Below are positions 14,522-63,368 of a stretch of 64,000 nucleotides of DNA, piece after piece. The position numbers and the translations under genes were made by a program. Position 1 is the stretch's first letter, and each line of letters opens with the position of its first letter. Source of the DNA: Marinicauda salina (GTDB lineage Bacteria; Pseudomonadota; Alphaproteobacteria; Caulobacterales; Maricaulaceae); NCBI RefSeq assembly GCF_003122085.1, contig NZ_QEXV01000003.1, positions 499,001 to 563,000 on the forward strand. Direction: 5' to 3'. Under the pieces are notes generated by a model. It searched no databases. It was not told the origin of the DNA and worked only from the letters and a program-made list of their open reading frames with translations.

Positions 14522-14591
14522 GCCGGCGGCGGGATAGCCCTTTCGCGGCCCGAGCGCCAGTGCAAGCAGAGAGACTCGGTGCGGGATGATT

Positions 14592-14686
14592 GAATTCCCG
14601 GACGCGCCGCGGGCGCGATCCGGGACCTCTGCGAGATTATTCGCGGAGAGGCCCCGGCTCTCCCTCCGGTCGGCCGGGGTTTCAGG
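14592..14686. repeat. Dispersed palindromic repeat, family B copy 1 (intergenic)
   Basis: A GC-rich element between the GT9 gene and ygfZ. It has two stem-loops: CCCGGACGCGCC against GGCGCGATCCGGG, and GGCCCCGGCTC against GGCCGGGG. Read in reverse complement it matches the segment inside glyS at about 38061-38177: the shared blocks TGAAACCCCGGCCGAC, GGGAGAGCCGGGGCCTC and GAGGTCCCGGATCGCGCC occur in the same order with a variable middle. This proves it is a mobile or dispersed family, not a chance hairpin. Confidence 0.85.
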
Positions 14687-14746: not shown

Positions 14747-15592
14747 ATGACCGACGCGCCCGACTTCCTCACCGCCCTGCCCGACCGCGCCGTGATCCGC
14801 ATAACCGGCGCGGATGCGCGCAGCTTCCTGCAGCGCGTGATCACGCGCGGCCCGGAGGATCTGCCCGACGGCGGCGCGATTTTCTCCGCCCTGCTCACGC
14901 CGCAGGGCAAGATCCTCGCCGACTTCGTCATTTTCGACGACGGCGAGGGCGGGCTCTATCTCGACACGCCGGCGAGCGAGGCCGAGGCGCTGGCCAAGCG
15001 CCTGGCGATGTATCGCCTGCGGGCGAAGGCCGAGATCGCCATCGACGCCGAACTCGCCGTGGCGGCCGCGCGCGGCGAGGGCGAAGCCGAACTGAAGACG
15101 GTCGCGCACGCGATCGCGCCCGCCCCCCGCAGCGCAGCGCTCGGCGTCCGCGCGATCGTGACCGCCGGCGGCCCCGAGGACGTCGACGCCTACGACGCCG
15201 CGCGCATCGCCGCCGGCGTCCCCGAGTTCGGCCGCGACTACGGCGCGGGCGAAGTCTTCTCCACCGACGTCAATCACGACCGGCTGGGCGGCATCGACTA
15301 CCGGAAAGGCTGCTTCGTCGGCCAGGAGGTCGCCAGCCGCATGCACAGGAAGGGCGGCGTTCGGAAGCGCACGCTGCGCTTCGCCCTCGAGGGCGGATCG
15401 CCCGAGGCGGGTGCGGCCGTGACCGCCGGAGAAAAGAAGGTCGGCGAGGTGACGTCCGCCGCCGACGGTCTGGCGCTGGCGCTCGTGCGGGTGGACCGGC
15501 TCGCGAAGGCGGTCGAGGACGGCGGCGCGATCACGCTCGGCGAAGCGGCCGCCCGCCTGCTCGACGACCTCGACGCGATGACGGCGGCCTGA
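14747..15592 (+). CDS. ygfZ: YgfZ/GcvT-like folate-binding protein
   Basis: A 281-residue protein of the YgfZ (IBA57/CAF17) family, a tetrahydrofolate-binding relative of GcvT that helps maintain certain Fe-S enzymes, including radical SAM proteins. The defining KGCFVGQE motif is at 187-194 with Cys189, followed by RMHRKG. It is clearly distinct from the true GcvT encoded at 61954. Radical SAM and Fe-S proteins elsewhere in this window (NadA, MutY, the LexA-box gene) are plausible clients. Confidence 0.93.
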   Translation: MTDAPDFLTALPDRAVIRITGADARSFLQRVITRGPEDLPDGGAIFSALLTPQGKILADFVIFDDGEGGLYLDTPASEAEALAKRLAMYRLRAKAEIAIDAELAVAAARGEGEAELKTVAHAIAPAPRSAALGVRAIVTAGGPEDVDAYDAARIAAGVPEFGRDYGAGEVFSTDVNHDRLGGIDYRKGCFVGQEVASRMHRKGGVRKRTLRFALEGGSPEAGAAVTAGEKKVGEVTSAADGLALALVRVDRLAKAVEDGGAITLGEAAARLLDDLDAMTAA

Positions 15593-15706
15593 CCCCCACC
15601 CCCGCCCTCCCCCTGAGAGGAGGGAGTCCCGCCCATCGCGACGGAGACGGATTCGCTGATCGAACACGCGTCTCCCTCCCCTTGAGGGGAGGGTCGGGGT
15701 GGGGTG
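15593..15706. repeat. Dispersed palindromic repeat, family A copy 1 (intergenic)
   Basis: A 114-base element between ygfZ and tag. Outer arms (CCCCACCCCCGCCCTCCC and GGGAGGGTCGGGGTGGGG) are near-complementary. Each arm carries its own small hairpin: CCCTCCCCCTGAGAGGAGGG and CCCTCCCCTTGAGGGGAGGG. The middle (about 15630-15670) is unique. It matches the copy inside the TIGR04282 gene at 42488-42604 in layout and in the GGGAGTCC and TCTCCCTCCC blocks beside the loops. Confidence 0.9.
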
Positions 15707-15716
15707 AAACGGAGAG

Positions 15717-22000: not shown

Positions 22001-22152
22001 CCCTCCCTCCCCCTCGCGGGGAGGGTGGCTGCGCTTCGCAGAAGCGCAGTCGGGTGGGGGGCTGCGTCCTTCCGGCCGAACGCCGCGAGCTGCGATCTCC
22101 ACCCCCCCCTCGCTTCGCTCGGGACCCTCCCCATCAAGGGGAGGGAGGGATC
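22001..22152. repeat. Dispersed palindromic repeat, family A-like copy 2 (between nadA and nadB)
   Basis: A long imperfect palindrome filling the 169-base gap inside the nad operon. Hairpins CCCTCCCCCTCGCGGGGAGGG at the left and CCCTCCCCATCAAGGGGAGGG at the right flank a GCTGCGCTTC-GC-GAAGCGCAG stem and matching GGGTGGGGGG / CCACCCCCCC tracts. It is related to the other CCTCCCC...GGGGAGG elements. The last bases (GAGGGAGGGATC) act as or hide the nadB ribosome binding site, so folding could tune nadB translation. Confidence 0.85.
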
Positions 22153-34917: not shown

Positions 34918-35056
34918 GCCTCCCCCCTCCGGCTTCGGCTTCGCCTCAGCCACCTCCCCCGTAAACGGGGGAGGAAAAGCTCTCGACGCCTACTCCGGGT
35001 TTCCTCCCCCGCTTGCGGGGGAGGGGGACCACGAAGTGGTGGAGGGGGCGTCGCGC
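34918..35056. repeat. Dispersed palindromic repeat, family A copy 3 (between glyQ and GST gene)
   Basis: Outer arms GCCTCCCCCCTCC and GTGGAGGGGGCG face each other. Inside are hairpins CCTCCCCCGTAAACGGGGGAGG and CCTCCCCCGCTTGCGGGGGAGG, plus a small CCACGAAGTGG stem. The same outer arms and doubled inner hairpins recur inside glyS (37196-37311). It fills nearly all of the 169-base gap; nothing else is seen there. Confidence 0.88.
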
Positions 35057-35950: not shown

Positions 35951-38494
35951 ATGGCCGAACTCCTCATCGAATTCTTCTCGGAGGAAATTCCCGCGCGCAT
36001 GCAGGCGCGCGCGGAGAGCGATCTCGCGCGCCTGGTCTCCGACCAGCTCAAGGAGGCCGGGCTCGGCTTCGGGAACCTGCGGACCTTTTCCGGCCCGCGC
36101 CGCATCGGCCTCGTCGCCGACAAAATCCCCGAAAAGACCGAGGACGTGCGCGAGGAGCGCAAGGGCCCGCGCGTCGGCGCGCCCGACAAGGCCGTCGAGG
36201 GCTTCCTGCGCGGCGCCGGGCTTTCGAGCCTCGACCAGTGCGAGACGCGCTCCGACAAGAAGGGCGAGTTCTACGTCGCCGTCATCGAGAAGCCCGGCCG
36301 GCCCGCCGCCGAGGTGATCGCCGAGGCGGTCGAGTACGCGGCGAAGAATTTCCCGTGGCCGAAATCGATGAAGTTCGGCGAAGGCGACGCCGCCCAGCGC
36401 TGGGTGCGCCCGCTGCACCGGGTCGTCTGCCTGCTCGGCGGCGAGATCGTCCCGGCGACGGTCTTCGGGATCGAGGCGTCGAACCTCACCGAGGGCCATC
36501 GCATCCACTCGAAGGCCGATCGGGTCTTCGCGGTGAAAGACTACGCCGACTACCAGGCCAAGCTGCGCGAGAACGGCGTCACGCCTACGCGCGACGAGCG
36601 CGAGGCCGCCATCATCGAGGGCGCGCGGAAGGTCTGCGCCGACGCGGGGCTCGAGCTGGTCGAGGACGCGGGCCTGCTCGCCGAGGTGACGGGGCTGGTG
36701 GAGCATCCCGTCCCGGTGCTCGGCGACATGGACCCGGAGTTTCTCGACCTGCCCCCGGAAGTCGTCACGCTGACGATGAAGGTCCACCAGAAATATTTCG
36801 CCGTGCGCGACCCGAAGACGGGCGAGCTCGCGCCGAAATTCGTCGTCGTCGCCAACCAGGACGCCCCCGACGGCGGGACGGCGATCGCGGCGGGCAATGC
36901 GCGCGTGCTGTCGGCCCGGTTGTCGGACGCGCGGCATTTCTGGGATCTCGACGTCGCCAAGGGCCTCGACGCCATGGCCGGCGAGCTCGGCGCCGTCACC
37001 TTCCACGACAAGCTCGGCTCGATGGCCGACAAGGTCGAGCGCGTCGCCGCGCTCGCCCGCGAACTGGCCCCGGCCGTCGGCGCCGATCCCAATCTCGCCG
37101 AGACCGCCGCCCGGCTCGCCAAGGCCGATCTCGTCAGCCGGATGGTCTACGAGTTCCCCGAGCTGCAGGGCGTGATGGGGCGATATTATGCGCTCGCCCC
37201 CCTCGGCCCTTCGGGCCACTCCCCCCGCAAGCGGGGGGAGACATCAACCGACGGTGGGGTGTCCTCCCCCGCTCGTGGGGGAGGTGTCAGCGAAGCTGAC
37301 GGAGGGGGCCTGCTCGCCGATCTCTCCGACGACGAACGCGCACAGGTCGCCGACGCGATCCGCGACCACTACAGGCCGCAGGGCCCGTCCGACGACGTCC
37401 CGACCGCGCCGGTGAGCGCCGCCGTCGCGCTCGCCGACAAGCTCGACACGCTCGTCGGCTTCTGGGCGATCGACGAAAAGCCGACGGGCTCGAAGGACCC
37501 CTATGCGCTCAGGCGCGCGGCGCTGGGGGTGAGCCGCATTCTGCTGGCCGGAGACATCCGGATCTCGATCCGCCAGACGGCGCATCACTGGTTCACGGCC
37601 CACACGAAGGCGCAGCACCAGCTGAGCAAGGGCGACAAAGGCAGCCGCCAGACCGTGTTCTGCCTGCTCAAGGCCAACGACAAGGTGCTGCTCGAAATCG
37701 ACGCGAGCGACTATGACTGGCGCGTCGTCCACGAACAGTACGTCGATATCGTCCGCCGCTATCACGGCGGATCATCGAACGACCTCCTCGCCTTCTTCGC
37801 CGACCGGCTGAAGGTCCATCTCCGCGACGAGGGCGTGCGCCACGACGTCATCGACGCGGTGTTCGCGCCCAGAGTCGATGGAACCGTCGACGACGACCTC
37901 GTGCGCGTGACCAACAAGGCGCGCGCGCTGCAGGCCTTCCTCGAGACCGAGGACGGCGCGGCGCTGCTGACGGGCTATCGCCGCGCGGCGAACATCCTCA
38001 AGGCCGAGGAGAAGAAGGGCTTCGATCTCGCCGCGGCGCGGGCCGAGGCGCTTCATGGCGTTGAAACCCCGGCCGACCCCGGACTTGATCCGGGGGAGAG
38101 CCGGGGCCTCCCGGCGTCCGGTCGCGACGAGGTCCCGGATCGCGCCTCCGGCGCGTCCGGGATTTCAGGGGGAATCCACGGCCCCGAAATCGCCGCCGAA
38201 CAAGACGCCGCCCTGCTCGTCGCCGTCGCCCAGACCGCCGAGGCCGACGAGGAGACCGCGCTGATCGCCGCCATCGAGGGCGCCGAGGACGTCGCGGCGA
38301 AGGCGCTCGCCGACGAGGATTTCGAAGGCGCGATGACGGCGCTGGCGAGCCTGCGCGCGCCTGTGGACGCATTCTTCGAGGCCGTTGTGGTCAACGCCGA
38401 GAACGATATGCTGCGACGCAACAGACTCCTGCTCCTGTCGCGGATCCGCGCCGCCGTGCGCGCCGTGGCGGACTTCGATCGACTGGAGGGCTGA
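35951..38494 (+). CDS. glyS: Glycyl-tRNA synthetase beta subunit with two palindromic-repeat insertions
   Basis: An 847-residue GlyS, well above the E. coli length of 689. The start MAELLIEFFSEEIPARM is invariant in GlyS. The core HD-like region, LADKLDTLVGFWAIDEKPTGSKDPYALRRAALGV, and the C-terminal anticodon-binding region, FFEAVVVNAENDMLRRNRLLLL, are intact, so the protein should work. Residues about 416-454 are encoded by a family A palindrome and about 704-746 by a family B palindrome, both in frame. A third extra stretch (about residues 540-600, between GVSRIL and FFADRLK) is longer than in E. coli but not palindromic. GlyS binds tRNA(Gly) and completes the enzyme with GlyQ. Confidence 0.96.
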   Translation: MAELLIEFFSEEIPARMQARAESDLARLVSDQLKEAGLGFGNLRTFSGPRRIGLVADKIPEKTEDVREERKGPRVGAPDKAVEGFLRGAGLSSLDQCETRSDKKGEFYVAVIEKPGRPAAEVIAEAVEYAAKNFPWPKSMKFGEGDAAQRWVRPLHRVVCLLGGEIVPATVFGIEASNLTEGHRIHSKADRVFAVKDYADYQAKLRENGVTPTRDEREAAIIEGARKVCADAGLELVEDAGLLAEVTGLVEHPVPVLGDMDPEFLDLPPEVVTLTMKVHQKYFAVRDPKTGELAPKFVVVANQDAPDGGTAIAAGNARVLSARLSDARHFWDLDVAKGLDAMAGELGAVTFHDKLGSMADKVERVAALARELAPAVGADPNLAETAARLAKADLVSRMVYEFPELQGVMGRYYALAPLGPSGHSPRKRGETSTDGGVSSPARGGGVSEADGGGLLADLSDDERAQVADAIRDHYRPQGPSDDVPTAPVSAAVALADKLDTLVGFWAIDEKPTGSKDPYALRRAALGVSRILLAGDIRISIRQTAHHWFTAHTKAQHQLSKGDKGSRQTVFCLLKANDKVLLEIDASDYDWRVVHEQYVDIVRRYHGGSSNDLLAFFADRLKVHLRDEGVRHDVIDAVFAPRVDGTVDDDLVRVTNKARALQAFLETEDGAALLTGYRRAANILKAEEKKGFDLAAARAEALHGVETPADPGLDPGESRGLPASGRDEVPDRASGASGISGGIHGPEIAAEQDAALLVAVAQTAEADEETALIAAIEGAEDVAAKALADEDFEGAMTALASLRAPVDAFFEAVVVNAENDMLRRNRLLLLSRIRAAVRAVADFDRLEG
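37196..37311. repeat. Palindromic repeat, family A copy 4, in frame inside glyS
   Basis: Outer arms GCCCCCCTC and GGAGGGGGC; a GGCCCTTCGGGCC hairpin; then CTCCCCCCGCAAGCGGGGGGAG and CCTCCCCCGCTCGTGGGGGAGG. The layout equals the intergenic copy at 34918. Translated in the glyS frame it gives about 39 Gly/Ser/Arg-rich residues (for example SPRKRGETSTDGG) between the conserved MGRYYA and the region leading to VADAIRDHY. Confidence 0.9.
38061..38177. repeat. Palindromic repeat, family B copy 2, in frame inside glyS
   Basis: Matches the reverse complement of the intergenic element at 14592-14686: TGAAACCCCGGCCGAC, GGGAGAGCCGGGGCCTC and GAGGTCCCGGATCGCGCC are shared in order, and both end CGCGTCCGGGA-TTCA. 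In the glyS frame it adds about 38 residues (PADPGLDPGESRG and following) near residue 704, between AEALHG and the helix ending the catalytic core. Confidence 0.9.
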
Positions 38495-42190: not shown

Positions 42191-42883
42191 TCAGCGATTT
42201 CTTTTGAGGTCGTCCGCCTCGTCGATATCGGCGAGCGTGCGCAGATGCGTCCAGCTCATCCCGAAACGGGCCAGATTGCGTTCGACGTCCCCGCGCGTCC
42301 CGGAATGGGACCAGCGCACCCCGTCGAACAGACCCGCCGGCGCAGGCGCTTTCAGTCCCAGCAGCCAGTAGCCGCCGTCCTCGGCCGGGCCGATCACCGC
42401 GTCATGGCGCCTGAGCGCGGCGAAGGCCGCGGCGATGTCGGCGCGCGTCACGCCGGGCGCGTCCGAGCCGATGACGACGGTCGGGCGCCGGCATCCCCGC
42501 CGTCCACCCCACCCCGTCCCTCCCCTCGAGGGGAGGGAGTCCGATAGTCGCCCACGTTTCTCCCTCCCCCCACTTGGGAGGGTCGGGGTGGGCGGACGCC
42601 AAGAGAAGATTCGACGCTGGCGCGCGCCGAGATCGCCGCCGCCCTGGGCCACGCGCTTCAAGGCCTCCGGCCAGACGCCGGGATAGCGACGGCTGACCGC
42701 CGCGTCGGGGGCGACGGCGAGGACCGTCTCCCAGCGCGGATCCCGCAACCGCCGCAGCAGCCGGGCCGTCATGGCGCGATGCAGCCGCCAGGCCTCGACG
42801 CGTCCGACGCCTGCGGCGAGCCGCGTCTTGGCCCCGCCGATCACCGGCGCCTTGGCGAACATGACCAGGCGCGGCCGGGTCAC
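42191..42883 (-). CDS. TIGR04282-type glycosyltransferase (DUF2064) with palindromic-repeat insertion
   Basis: A 230-residue protein of the TIGR04282 family. Nucleotide-sugar signatures: VMFAKAPVIGGAKTRLA near residues 7-23, VVIGSDAPGV at 136-145, and GPAEDGGYWLLGL. These proteins are named for arsenosugar clusters, but no ArsM or ArsS is here. Residues about 94-132 (nt 42488-42604) are encoded by a family A palindrome that sits in frame between GARQRRIF and VVIGSD; homologues have only a short loop here. The GTG start overlaps the stop of the upstream family 2 glycosyltransferase gene. Whether the protein is active with the insert is open. Confidence 0.82.
   Translation of the reverse strand: MTRPRLVMFAKAPVIGGAKTRLAAGVGRVEAWRLHRAMTARLLRRLRDPRWETVLAVAPDAAVSRRYPGVWPEALKRVAQGGGDLGARQRRIFSWRPPTPTLPSGGREKRGRLSDSLPSRGGTGWGGRRGCRRPTVVIGSDAPGVTRADIAAAFAALRRHDAVIGPAEDGGYWLLGLKAPAPAGLFDGVRWSHSGTRGDVERNLARFGMSWTHLRTLADIDEADDLKRNR
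42488..42604. repeat. Palindromic repeat, family A copy 5, in frame inside the TIGR04282 gene
   Basis: On the plus strand CACCCCACCCCGTCCCTCC and GGGAGGGTCGGGGTGGG form the outer arms; CCCTCCCCTCGAGGGGAGGG is a perfect inner hairpin, and CCCTCCCCCCACTTGGGAGGG another. It matches the intergenic copy at 15593-15706. It spans a multiple of three bases (117) and is read through without a stop on the minus strand. Confidence 0.9.
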
Positions 42884-43599
42884 TTCGAATAGGCCCGCGC
42901 CAGCCGCGCCGGGTCGGCGCCGAGATAGTAGCGCGACAGCAGGACCAGATTCTTCGCCGAGCGCTTCAGATAGCCCTCGCGGCGAAAACGCTCGGCGCTG
43001 GTGATCGCTTTCGAGCGCAGCGGCTTCAGCCGGCGCCGGCCGATGCGCCGGACGAGATCGACGTCCTCGAACAGCGGCCAGGGCTTGAACCCGCCGAGCC
43101 GGCGATAGAAGGCCAGCGGCAGGACCAGCCCCTGATCGCCATAGGGCAGCGCGAAGGCCCGGCAGCGCCAGTCGACGAAGCGCTCCAAGCGCTTGGCCGC
43201 CCCGGACGGATCGTCCAGCGCGAAGCGGAAATGGAAGGCGTAGTCGCGGCCGGCGTTCATCTCCATCACGCGGGCCAGTTCGCTCGACCAGCCCGGCGAG
43301 AGGCGCGTATCCGCGTGGAGGAAGAGGAGCCAGTCTTCGGGATCCGCCAGTCGCGCGGCCGCCTCCGCGCCGGCGACGAGCTGCGCGCCGCGCCCCGTCG
43401 CGCCCGAGGCGATCGTGAACCCCGCCCGTTGGGCGATCTCGCGCGTGGCGTCGCGCGAGCCGCCGTCGGCGAGCACCCACGGACCAATGAGACGCGAGCG
43501 CACGCCCTCGTCCAGCGCCGCGATCGTCGCGGGCAGGCGAGCCGCGGCGTCGAGCGCGGGAATGACGGGAACAAGGCGGGCCATCGCCGTCTGTTTCAT
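42880..43599 (-). CDS. TIGR04283-type family 2 glycosyltransferase
   Basis: A 239-residue GT2. VPVIPALDAAARLPATI opens the GT-A fold, WVLADGGSRDATREIA holds the nucleotide-binding aspartate, LFLHADTRL the DxD-like motif, and GDQGLVLPLAFYRRLGGF the acceptor loop. TIGR04283 and TIGR04282 are usually found side by side, as here, with overlapping stop and start codons (TGA/GTG at 42880-42883). The acceptor is unknown. An internal ATG at codon 6 is an alternative start. The gene is divergent from the radical SAM gene, with the LexA box 32 bases upstream. Confidence 0.85.
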   Translation of the reverse strand: MKQTAMARLVPVIPALDAAARLPATIAALDEGVRSRLIGPWVLADGGSRDATREIAQRAGFTIASGATGRGAQLVAGAEAAARLADPEDWLLFLHADTRLSPGWSSELARVMEMNAGRDYAFHFRFALDDPSGAAKRLERFVDWRCRAFALPYGDQGLVLPLAFYRRLGGFKPWPLFEDVDLVRRIGRRRLKPLRSKAITSAERFRREGYLKRSAKNLVLLSRYYLGADPARLARAYSK

Positions 43600-43630
43600 C
43601 GCGCCGGGATGTGGAAGTCAATTCCGAAAT

Positions 43631-63060: not shown

Positions 63061-63124
63061 CGATCGTCCCTGGCGAGCGCTTGTCTTCGACGGTCTCCGC
63101 CTGGAGAACCGCCATCGCGCCCCC

Positions 63125-63316
63125 GCTGTCTCGACGACCTGAGAGATTGGGCGGCCGGGGACGTCGCCGCCCGCGCCGCTTGCTCCTTCGGTGGAATGGC
63201 GATCGAAATCGCCATCCGCTTTCCAGCGTCGGCCTGTTCCCGCGGTCCCTTAGCCTGAGCGTTTCCGGGGCGGTTGCGCCTTCGGCGCCGGCGTCTTCGG
63301 CCGGTCTCTCCCGCGG
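63125..63316 (-). promoter_or_regulatory. Tandem glycine riboswitch
   Basis: On the minus strand two aptamers follow each other. Aptamer 1: CCGCGGGAGAG (63316-63306), then GCCGAAGGCGCAACC (63286-63272), then ACGCTCAGGC. Aptamer 2: ACGCTGGAAAGCGG, then CACCGAAGGAGCAAGC, then AATCTCTCAGGTC and GACAG (ending 63125). The CCGAAGG-GCAA and CTCAGG blocks are the conserved core of gcvT-type glycine aptamers. Glycine binding should turn on gcvT-H-PA-PB. This accounts for most of the 362-base gap 63061-63422. Confidence 0.93.
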
Positions 63317-63368
63317 GGGCCTCTATGTACCGACTCGCTCGCCGCATGGCGCGCGCTTCGGTGGCGCC

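Follow-up and report, generated by a model that had tools for sequence, protein, structure and literature searches.

Insertion of palindromic repeats in frame into protein-coding genes is an already known phenomenon. The RPEs of Rickettsia, about 150 bp long, are palindromic repeats lying in frame within conserved genes (PMC10969869; PMC2229807), and an enterobacterial case of an in-frame palindrome is also on record (PMC2759123). Intragenic GTAG/CGTC REPs occur as dimers of hairpins in uvrA and in genes for tRNA synthetases, and in RAYT-linked REPtrons a repeat-flanked nuclease gene is thought to move the repeats (PMC3733652). The CIR repeats of Caulobacter are alphaproteobacterial, ~110 bp long and contain GANTC sites (PMC2229807). 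The triplex motif of E. coli is built from a pyrimidine arm, a loop, a purine arm, a linker and a third purine strand, and occurs 23 times in E. coli K-12 (PMC4666352). Statements drawn from the papers cited here and below are confined to the excerpts of them that were accessible.

Here we analyse a 64,000-nucleotide stretch of the Marinicauda salina genome (the window), in which a palindromic element at 42504–42596 lies in frame within a minus-strand gene. Compared by description, it shares with the RPEs its in-frame position in a conserved gene, and differs in residing in a GC-rich genome in which a gene that may confer mobility lies next to the repeats. Like the intragenic REPs, elements of this genome are paired hairpins found within uvrA and a tRNA synthetase gene; unlike REPs, the units of the family described below as A have no GTAG or CGTC end tag (15 aligned units, by eye), the genome is devoid of PF01797, and the gene between the repeats encodes a PD-(D/E)XK nuclease. 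The CIR repeats, again compared by description, differ in that the accessible text calls them absent from genes, with stops in all frames (PMC2229807). The units have the same order of parts as the TMECO and PIT triplex repeats, whose E. coli copies are intergenic and, in the excerpts of the source paper, have no mobility-gene association (PMC4666352), whereas the units here are also genic and stand beside DUF559 genes. A MITE shares its inverted repeats with a full-length element carrying a mobility gene; the inverted units here flank DUF559 genes, whose role in mobility is presumptive. What seems new is the partner, that is, the occurrence of triplex-motif units with DUF559 genes. We did not find this link stated in the accessible parts of the literature searched, a collection lacking most subscription papers. 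Our preferred reading, to which we assign a probability of roughly 0.7, is that the segment is a non-autonomous, MITE-like palindrome that was inserted in frame and derives from a DUF559 element whose nuclease moves it.

The palindrome and its DUF2064 host gene

The host gene (42191–42883, minus strand) belongs to the DUF2064/TIGR04282 family; a longer ORF (42191–43621) extends upstream over a TIGR04283 gene at 42880–43599. As the preliminary description had proposed, the palindrome is in frame and open on the coding strand of this gene. It consists of two 38-nt units, inverted to one another across a spacer, with unit 1 at 42504–42541 on the minus strand (54.3 bits) and unit 2 at 42559–42596 on the plus strand (42.5 bits). 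The coding strand has a folding energy of -87.9 kcal/mol (z = -5.26), and none of 200 shuffles folded equally well. The element had been reported as 42488–42604, with a length of 117 bases divisible by three; this figure depends on the choice of ends, as the distance is 93 nt from unit to unit and ~102 by homology. Measured unit to unit, the length is a multiple of three in five of the genome's ten A-A elements, and is 106 for the A copy that sits in frame in uvrA.

The likeness reported earlier to an intergenic copy at 15593–15706 was borne out: that copy, which we place at 15591–15707, also consists of two inverted units, and the two elements belong to one family, A (nhmmer E values of 4e-4 and 4e-6). 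A model of the A unit built from 15 copies gave at least 69 matches in the 2.89-Mb genome (E ≤ 0.01, the weakest being near this limit), and the core hairpin pattern gave 72 strand readings genome-wide versus 0 with a reversed-pattern control. An Rfam scan of the window at gathering score returned no family for the elements and yielded glycine riboswitch matches only, which form a tandem pair at 63124–63323. As a separate observation, a GANTC (CcrM) site lies at the inner hairpin edge in 21 of 63 A units (in the window, for example, at 42539–42543), with a background of ~0.015 for an equivalent stretch.

The motif CCCTCTCCC led to the triplex-motif repeat of Holder et al. 2015 (PMC4666352). 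Both units of the window element contain a pyrimidine arm, a short loop and a complementary purine arm, together with a third purine strand that matches the reversed purine arm at 0.89 in unit 1 and 1.00 in unit 2 (threshold 0.88). Judged from their sequence, the units have the layout of an intrastrand triplex motif.

The insertion is apparent when the gene is compared with its relatives. DUF2064 loci were scanned at 110 places, including the window's own (a few genomes occur twice, through two collections), and both motifs bordering the insert were readable in 49. The motifs are separated by 61 residues in the window, 51 in one relative (G029) and 25–30 in the remaining 47 loci. All but one of the 48 other readable loci have the short site, and the window copy therefore carries ~34 extra codons. 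The 51-residue loop of G029 (locus L112) lies at the same site, has no hairpin and is perhaps a decayed insertion. In an AlphaFold model of the host protein (53 sequences; mean pLDDT 84.5), the block means drop to 61, 47 and 46 across the insert, with residues 112–128 below 50, between a helix at 85–94 and a strand at 135–139. The insert is thus predicted to be a disordered loop within a well-folded protein.

One could suppose that the host gene is a pseudogene whose frame has stayed open by chance, and indeed chance openness is common in this DNA, where 105-bp stretches of the fetched sequence average 3.9 open frames out of six; the codon scores of the flanks of the insert are also low (0.09 and 0.18). 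Yet the invariant residues of the DUF2064 family are kept, and identity to the orthologue of G014 at codon positions 1, 2 and 3 is 0.76, 0.84 and 0.54, values similar to those of insert-free pairs. Because change falls mostly at third codon positions, as it does in insert-free orthologues, the host gene looks constrained, and in-frame insertions occur at seven other places in the genome, glyS having two. We consider a pseudogene highly improbable; the decay that the preliminary description had raised as the outcome adverse to its reading was not seen at the level of codon positions. The host protein, with ~34 added residues, probably still works, and is presumably both produced and active.

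In-frame elements in the genome and its relatives

Four types of element were collected, A, B, E and CD. The first three have one unit design, the linker of B and E holding a further hairpin, whereas CD is a different kind, a mosaic hairpin pair. All types together form at least 124 clusters in the genome. The totals are lower bounds, since the element scans scored 150 of 1838 and 150 of 10135 candidates; in another scan 69 sites were counted and the 50 among the matches listed were used, and 33 B places were picked via a fixed-loop pattern. The window contains, besides the A elements, a B element at 22001–22148 (A-like units plus the extra linker hairpin, in the opposite arrangement), two E units at 34921–35049, and a CD element at 14590–14686 on the minus strand. 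The frame of the last is open and its flanks are poorly coding, with scores of -0.01 and 0.13, and this copy (C3:513590) was left out of the genic set. Mixed elements also occur, with A and E units often together or beside CD copies, as at C1:104671–104782.

In-frame calls were made with a codon-usage screen followed by protein reading and Pfam, and gave eight insertions in seven genes. The gene glyS, for the beta subunit of glycyl-tRNA synthetase (35951–38494, plus strand), carries two, an E element of two inverted units at 37192–37309 and a CD element at 38060–38168 (plus strand). A elements lie in DUF2064, uvrA and prmC; rsmE has A and E units surrounding a DUF559 domain; an Lhr-type helicase has an E element, and the linker of an E2 acyltransferase has a diverged CD match. 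The preliminary description had placed the glyS copy in the same family as the DUF2064 element, at about 39 codons. The length of ~117 bp and the architecture agree, while the copy belongs to the sister family E and the second glyS copy to CD. Its count of three genic copies in the window (DUF2064 A, glyS E and glyS CD) stands, as does its expectation that such insertions occur generally across this genome. A glyS-like peptide at G000:C5:62489, within a 770-aa open frame, looks antisense by eye and was rejected.

The DUF2064 case fell just under the first threshold of the screen (0.09, 0.18) and was admitted by a looser one, which also let in the CD copy at 14590–14686. No cluster whose flanks both scored as coding (>0.25) had them in different frames of one strand, and none with same-frame coding flanks contained an internal stop. 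Six of the eight in-frame insertions clear this bar, DUF2064 and the glyS E copy being the exceptions, and frame-shifted insertions with weak scores could therefore escape the screen. Solved homologues of UvrA, PrmC and GlyRS-beta are free of inserts. The in-frame state had been taken as a possible sign of a special coding property, a view that finds no support here: the background averages 3.9 open frames, the ten A-A elements are open in 3 to 6 and the CD copies in 3.3, so that special openness of the elements is likewise unsupported. Survival under selection accounts for the in-frame state, given DNA that is open in most frames anyway.

Relatives bear elements in the same glyS, uvrA and rsmE loops, alongside empty sites. 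The number of residues between two motifs of rsmE is 54–74 in 22 of 31 loci, six being unreadable. It is 105 in G014, where the loop contains an E-like peptide and lacks DUF559, and 307 and 304 in this genome (G000) and G075, both with the DUF559 domain. The loop is therefore found in three states, with no insert, with an insert lacking DUF559 (G014), and with an insert plus DUF559 (G000, G075). G075 belongs to genus g5, of which the members G004, G021 and G033 have the short rsmE. At glyS site 1, 14 of 30 loci are short, nine including this genome are occupied and seven are unreadable; hairpins are still seen in L450, L451 and L455, and none was found at this site in L452, L458, L460 and L462 (L457 lay outside the scoring). 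The uvrA insert is absent, by length, in 26 of the 29 readable loci (30 in total), and one of these, L489, has a small additional segment that contains no hairpin. In G044 and G052, which belong to another family, E-type palindromes occupy the uvrA loop that carries an A element here. Together with the short DUF2064 sites, the empty sites at rsmE, uvrA and glyS uphold the earlier reading of the segment as an insertion.

DUF559 genes and their flanking repeats

The DUF559 domain inside rsmE led us to search for PF04480. The genome has three DUF559 genes, each with element clusters to its left and right no more than ~160 bp from the domain; under an even spread the rough chance of this is 7e-13. 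The CD family, which is among the types found in frame, is absent beside these three genes, which counts against the DUF559 reading. In the neighbourhood of this genome DUF559 occurs in 75 of 119 genomes with up to seven copies; it is often multi-copy and patchy. In two genera the RsmE rRNA methyltransferase contains the domain in frame, bordered left and right by palindromes (G000:C3:581133–582614 and locus L330). At E 1e-4, Pfam found in both of the rsmE proteins RsmE, DUF559 and a sub-threshold restriction-like domain, and no splicing domain.

We fetched 92 DUF559 loci at order level, three being from this genome, and 29 at phylum level, either the best-scoring or picked from the list, with 20 chosen for long open frames. 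L321 and L335 (truncated sequence) and L391 (short) were dropped before counting, leaving 90 and 28 loci. An inverted match scoring at least 14 between the two 300-bp flanks was present at 56 of the 90 order-level loci, as compared with 0/90 when flanks were displaced by 1 kb, 5/90 when left and right flanks of different loci were paired, and 0/25 at DUF2064 loci. Hairpins within 200 bp on both sides were found at 53/90 loci versus 1/90 for displaced positions. The phylum-level loci gave matches at 16/28 (displaced 2/28, mismatched 5/28), and because the positives include loci of 43–53% GC, GC content alone is no explanation. Ten named plasmid loci, taken from 43 plasmid records with a DUF559 match (30 among the matches listed), had flank matches at 5/10 versus 0/10 displaced, and a triplex motif on one or both sides at 7/10, one of these a Deinococcus. 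The loci without a matched pair (34/90 order-level, 12/28 phylum-level and 5/10 plasmid) count against the DUF559 reading, and so does the lack of a DUF559 match in the E. coli control genome, given the 23 triplex motifs of E. coli K-12 (PMC4666352); two other control genomes did match the domain.

The flanking hairpins have a preferred polarity. Hairpins with a stem of at least 7 were present in 190 of 236 DUF559 flanks, the displaced windows giving 45 hairpins. Read outward from the gene, the first arm was pyrimidine-rich in 160 and purine-rich in 5, the displaced values being 9 and 3. The 118 loci gave 480 strand readings of pyrimidine-purine hairpins, which cover both strands and so represent at most ~240 hairpins; a third strand was found 3' of the purine arm in 214 readings and 5' of the pyrimidine arm in 33, with shuffles at 6%. 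The displaced windows yielded just 21 hairpin readings, of which 11 had a third strand, a proportion that counts against the DUF559 reading. At the level of loci, the triplex motif was present in at least one flank at 99/118 and in both at 50, versus 8 and 0 for displaced windows. One flank (L411) is almost the same as one of the TMECO sequences listed (PMC4666352). The association of triplex-motif units with DUF559 genes is thus strong, and makes DUF559 the leading candidate for their mover.

These data bear directly on the proposal that the palindromes are REP/RPE-type repeats of the usual sort, mobilised by a RAYT or a different transposase, with DUF559 a mere neighbour or cargo. The architecture resembles that of REP dimers and intragenic REPs, being an inverted hairpin pair of ~100 bp with in-frame copies and with uvrA and a tRNA synthetase among its targets (PMC3733652), but the genome has 0 matches to the RAYT/Y1 transposase profile, which matched in 5 of 14 control genomes, and the 15 A units inspected by eye are devoid of the GTAG/CGTC tag. 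The left and right flanks also match each other at one and the same DUF559 locus far more often than flanks of mismatched loci do (the 56/90 and 5/90 above). We regard this proposal as unlikely.

The likeness of flanks among different DUF559 loci counts against a simple picture. It was found in 11 of 46 pairs within a genome and in 7 of 58 sampled pairs between genomes, with medians of 10 and 11. As this is no clear excess, a shared family moved in trans is unsupported outside G000. The long-ORF DUF559 matches in relatives were rejected as in-frame fusions, nearly all looking, by eye, like antisense or upstream open frames; L330 (rsmE) is the clear internal case among them. Two further loci are set down as observations. 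In L336, DUF559 follows a glyoxalase-like domain and a palindrome-derived peptide in one open frame and looks, by eye, like a C-terminal fusion. In L517, a plasmid of Sphingomonas parapaucimobilis, a DUF559 gene flanked left and right by triplex motifs separates sufB from sufC in the suf cluster.

The DUF559 nuclease as a candidate mover

When compared with PDB chains, the DUF559 profile matched 3hrl (endonuclease-like) at E 3.9e-40 and 3r3p ('Mobile intron protein') at 1.2e-4, and matched 1cw0 (DNA mismatch endonuclease) weakly at E 0.08. We take 3r3p to be the Vsr-like homing enzyme I-Bth0305I, and 1cw0 is presumably Vsr. Weak matches to B-subunit toxin chains (E ≥ 0.09) were attributed to chance. 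In 22 aligned DUF559 proteins E41, D70, E81, D83 and H87 are invariant. A difference from Vsr-like homing endonucleases is seen in rsmE, where a single open frame encodes both DUF559 and the host protein, and Pfam gives no splicing domain. PADLOC returned matches at E 0.005–0.008 only, and none for the rsmE protein.

Presence and absence of DUF559 genes with their repeats was seen at two loci on plasmids of Rhizobiaceae, for which the ends of the blocks are approximate. Between dsbA and smc, a block of DUF559 plus repeats is present in Sinorhizobium K101 and absent from Shinella; beside hydA, such a block is present in Shinella and absent from Sinorhizobium meliloti and K101. An apparently clean empty site at smc in S. 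meliloti was rejected, being a partial deletion of the DUF559 gene, which lies between dsbA and smc on pSymB of strain Ak57 (L520); this, too, counts against the DUF559 reading. Movement itself was not seen, and the window element has no readable target-site duplication, as the nearest relatives are other genera.

Hairpins can serve as terminators, and palindromes could gather near DUF559 genes for such a reason, bounding small transcripts, or at breakage-prone sites, the nuclease being a host repair enzyme akin to VsrA. A precedent is VsrA of Caulobacter, which belongs to DUF559 and for which a role as an endonuclease in the repair of mismatches at methylated sites has been proposed (PMC12907096). 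We nonetheless find this quite unlikely, as the repeats stand on both sides with one polarity (160 pyrimidine-first versus 5) and match in a locus-specific manner, and as DUF559 is multi-copy and patchy (75/119 genomes) and is present or absent together with the repeats at the two loci above.

It could also be that the palindromes are immobile, arising and spreading through template switching or gene conversion in replicating GC-rich, self-complementary DNA. An association of triplex motifs with local instability is reported for E. coli (PMC4666352), and the units do occur as mosaic mixtures. On the other hand, related units lie at unrelated sites of the genome, relatives have different element types in one and the same loop, and DUF559 is enriched between units, all of which renders an immobile origin clearly improbable.

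We therefore return to a mobile, DUF559-linked palindrome, for which the following course may be envisaged. The palindrome, two inverted units of triplex layout, would be a short derivative of a fuller element in which a DUF559 gene, encoding a Vsr-like PD-(D/E)XK nuclease, lies between such units. As the simplest source of movement, the nuclease would nick or cut the unit or the target, and host repair would copy the element in. The palindrome would have entered the DUF2064 gene at a helix-strand loop with the frame kept, while copies breaking a needed gene would be lost by selection. Movement by DUF559, its mode, and the derivation of the window copy from a DUF559 element are what we infer from the association and the loci compared.

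A broader proposition, which we hold to be evenly balanced, is that DUF559 and triplex palindromes together make up a so far unrecognised kind of bacterial mobile element, which would be widespread both in Proteobacteria and outside that group and would have given rise to the triplex repeats that abound in many genomes. Its short derivatives would add disordered loops to proteins in frame, and rsmE would carry the whole element in the manner of a non-splicing intein. If this is true, it would add an example from outside Rickettsia of protein segments built by selfish DNA, and would provide a function for DUF559, still listed by Pfam as unknown. Triplex-motif repeats are a widespread bacterial class for which, in the accessible excerpts (PMC4666352), a mobility gene has so far been lacking, and DUF559 suggests a mover. 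Should DUF559 be the mobility gene of triplex-motif repeats, the origin of those repeats would become testable.
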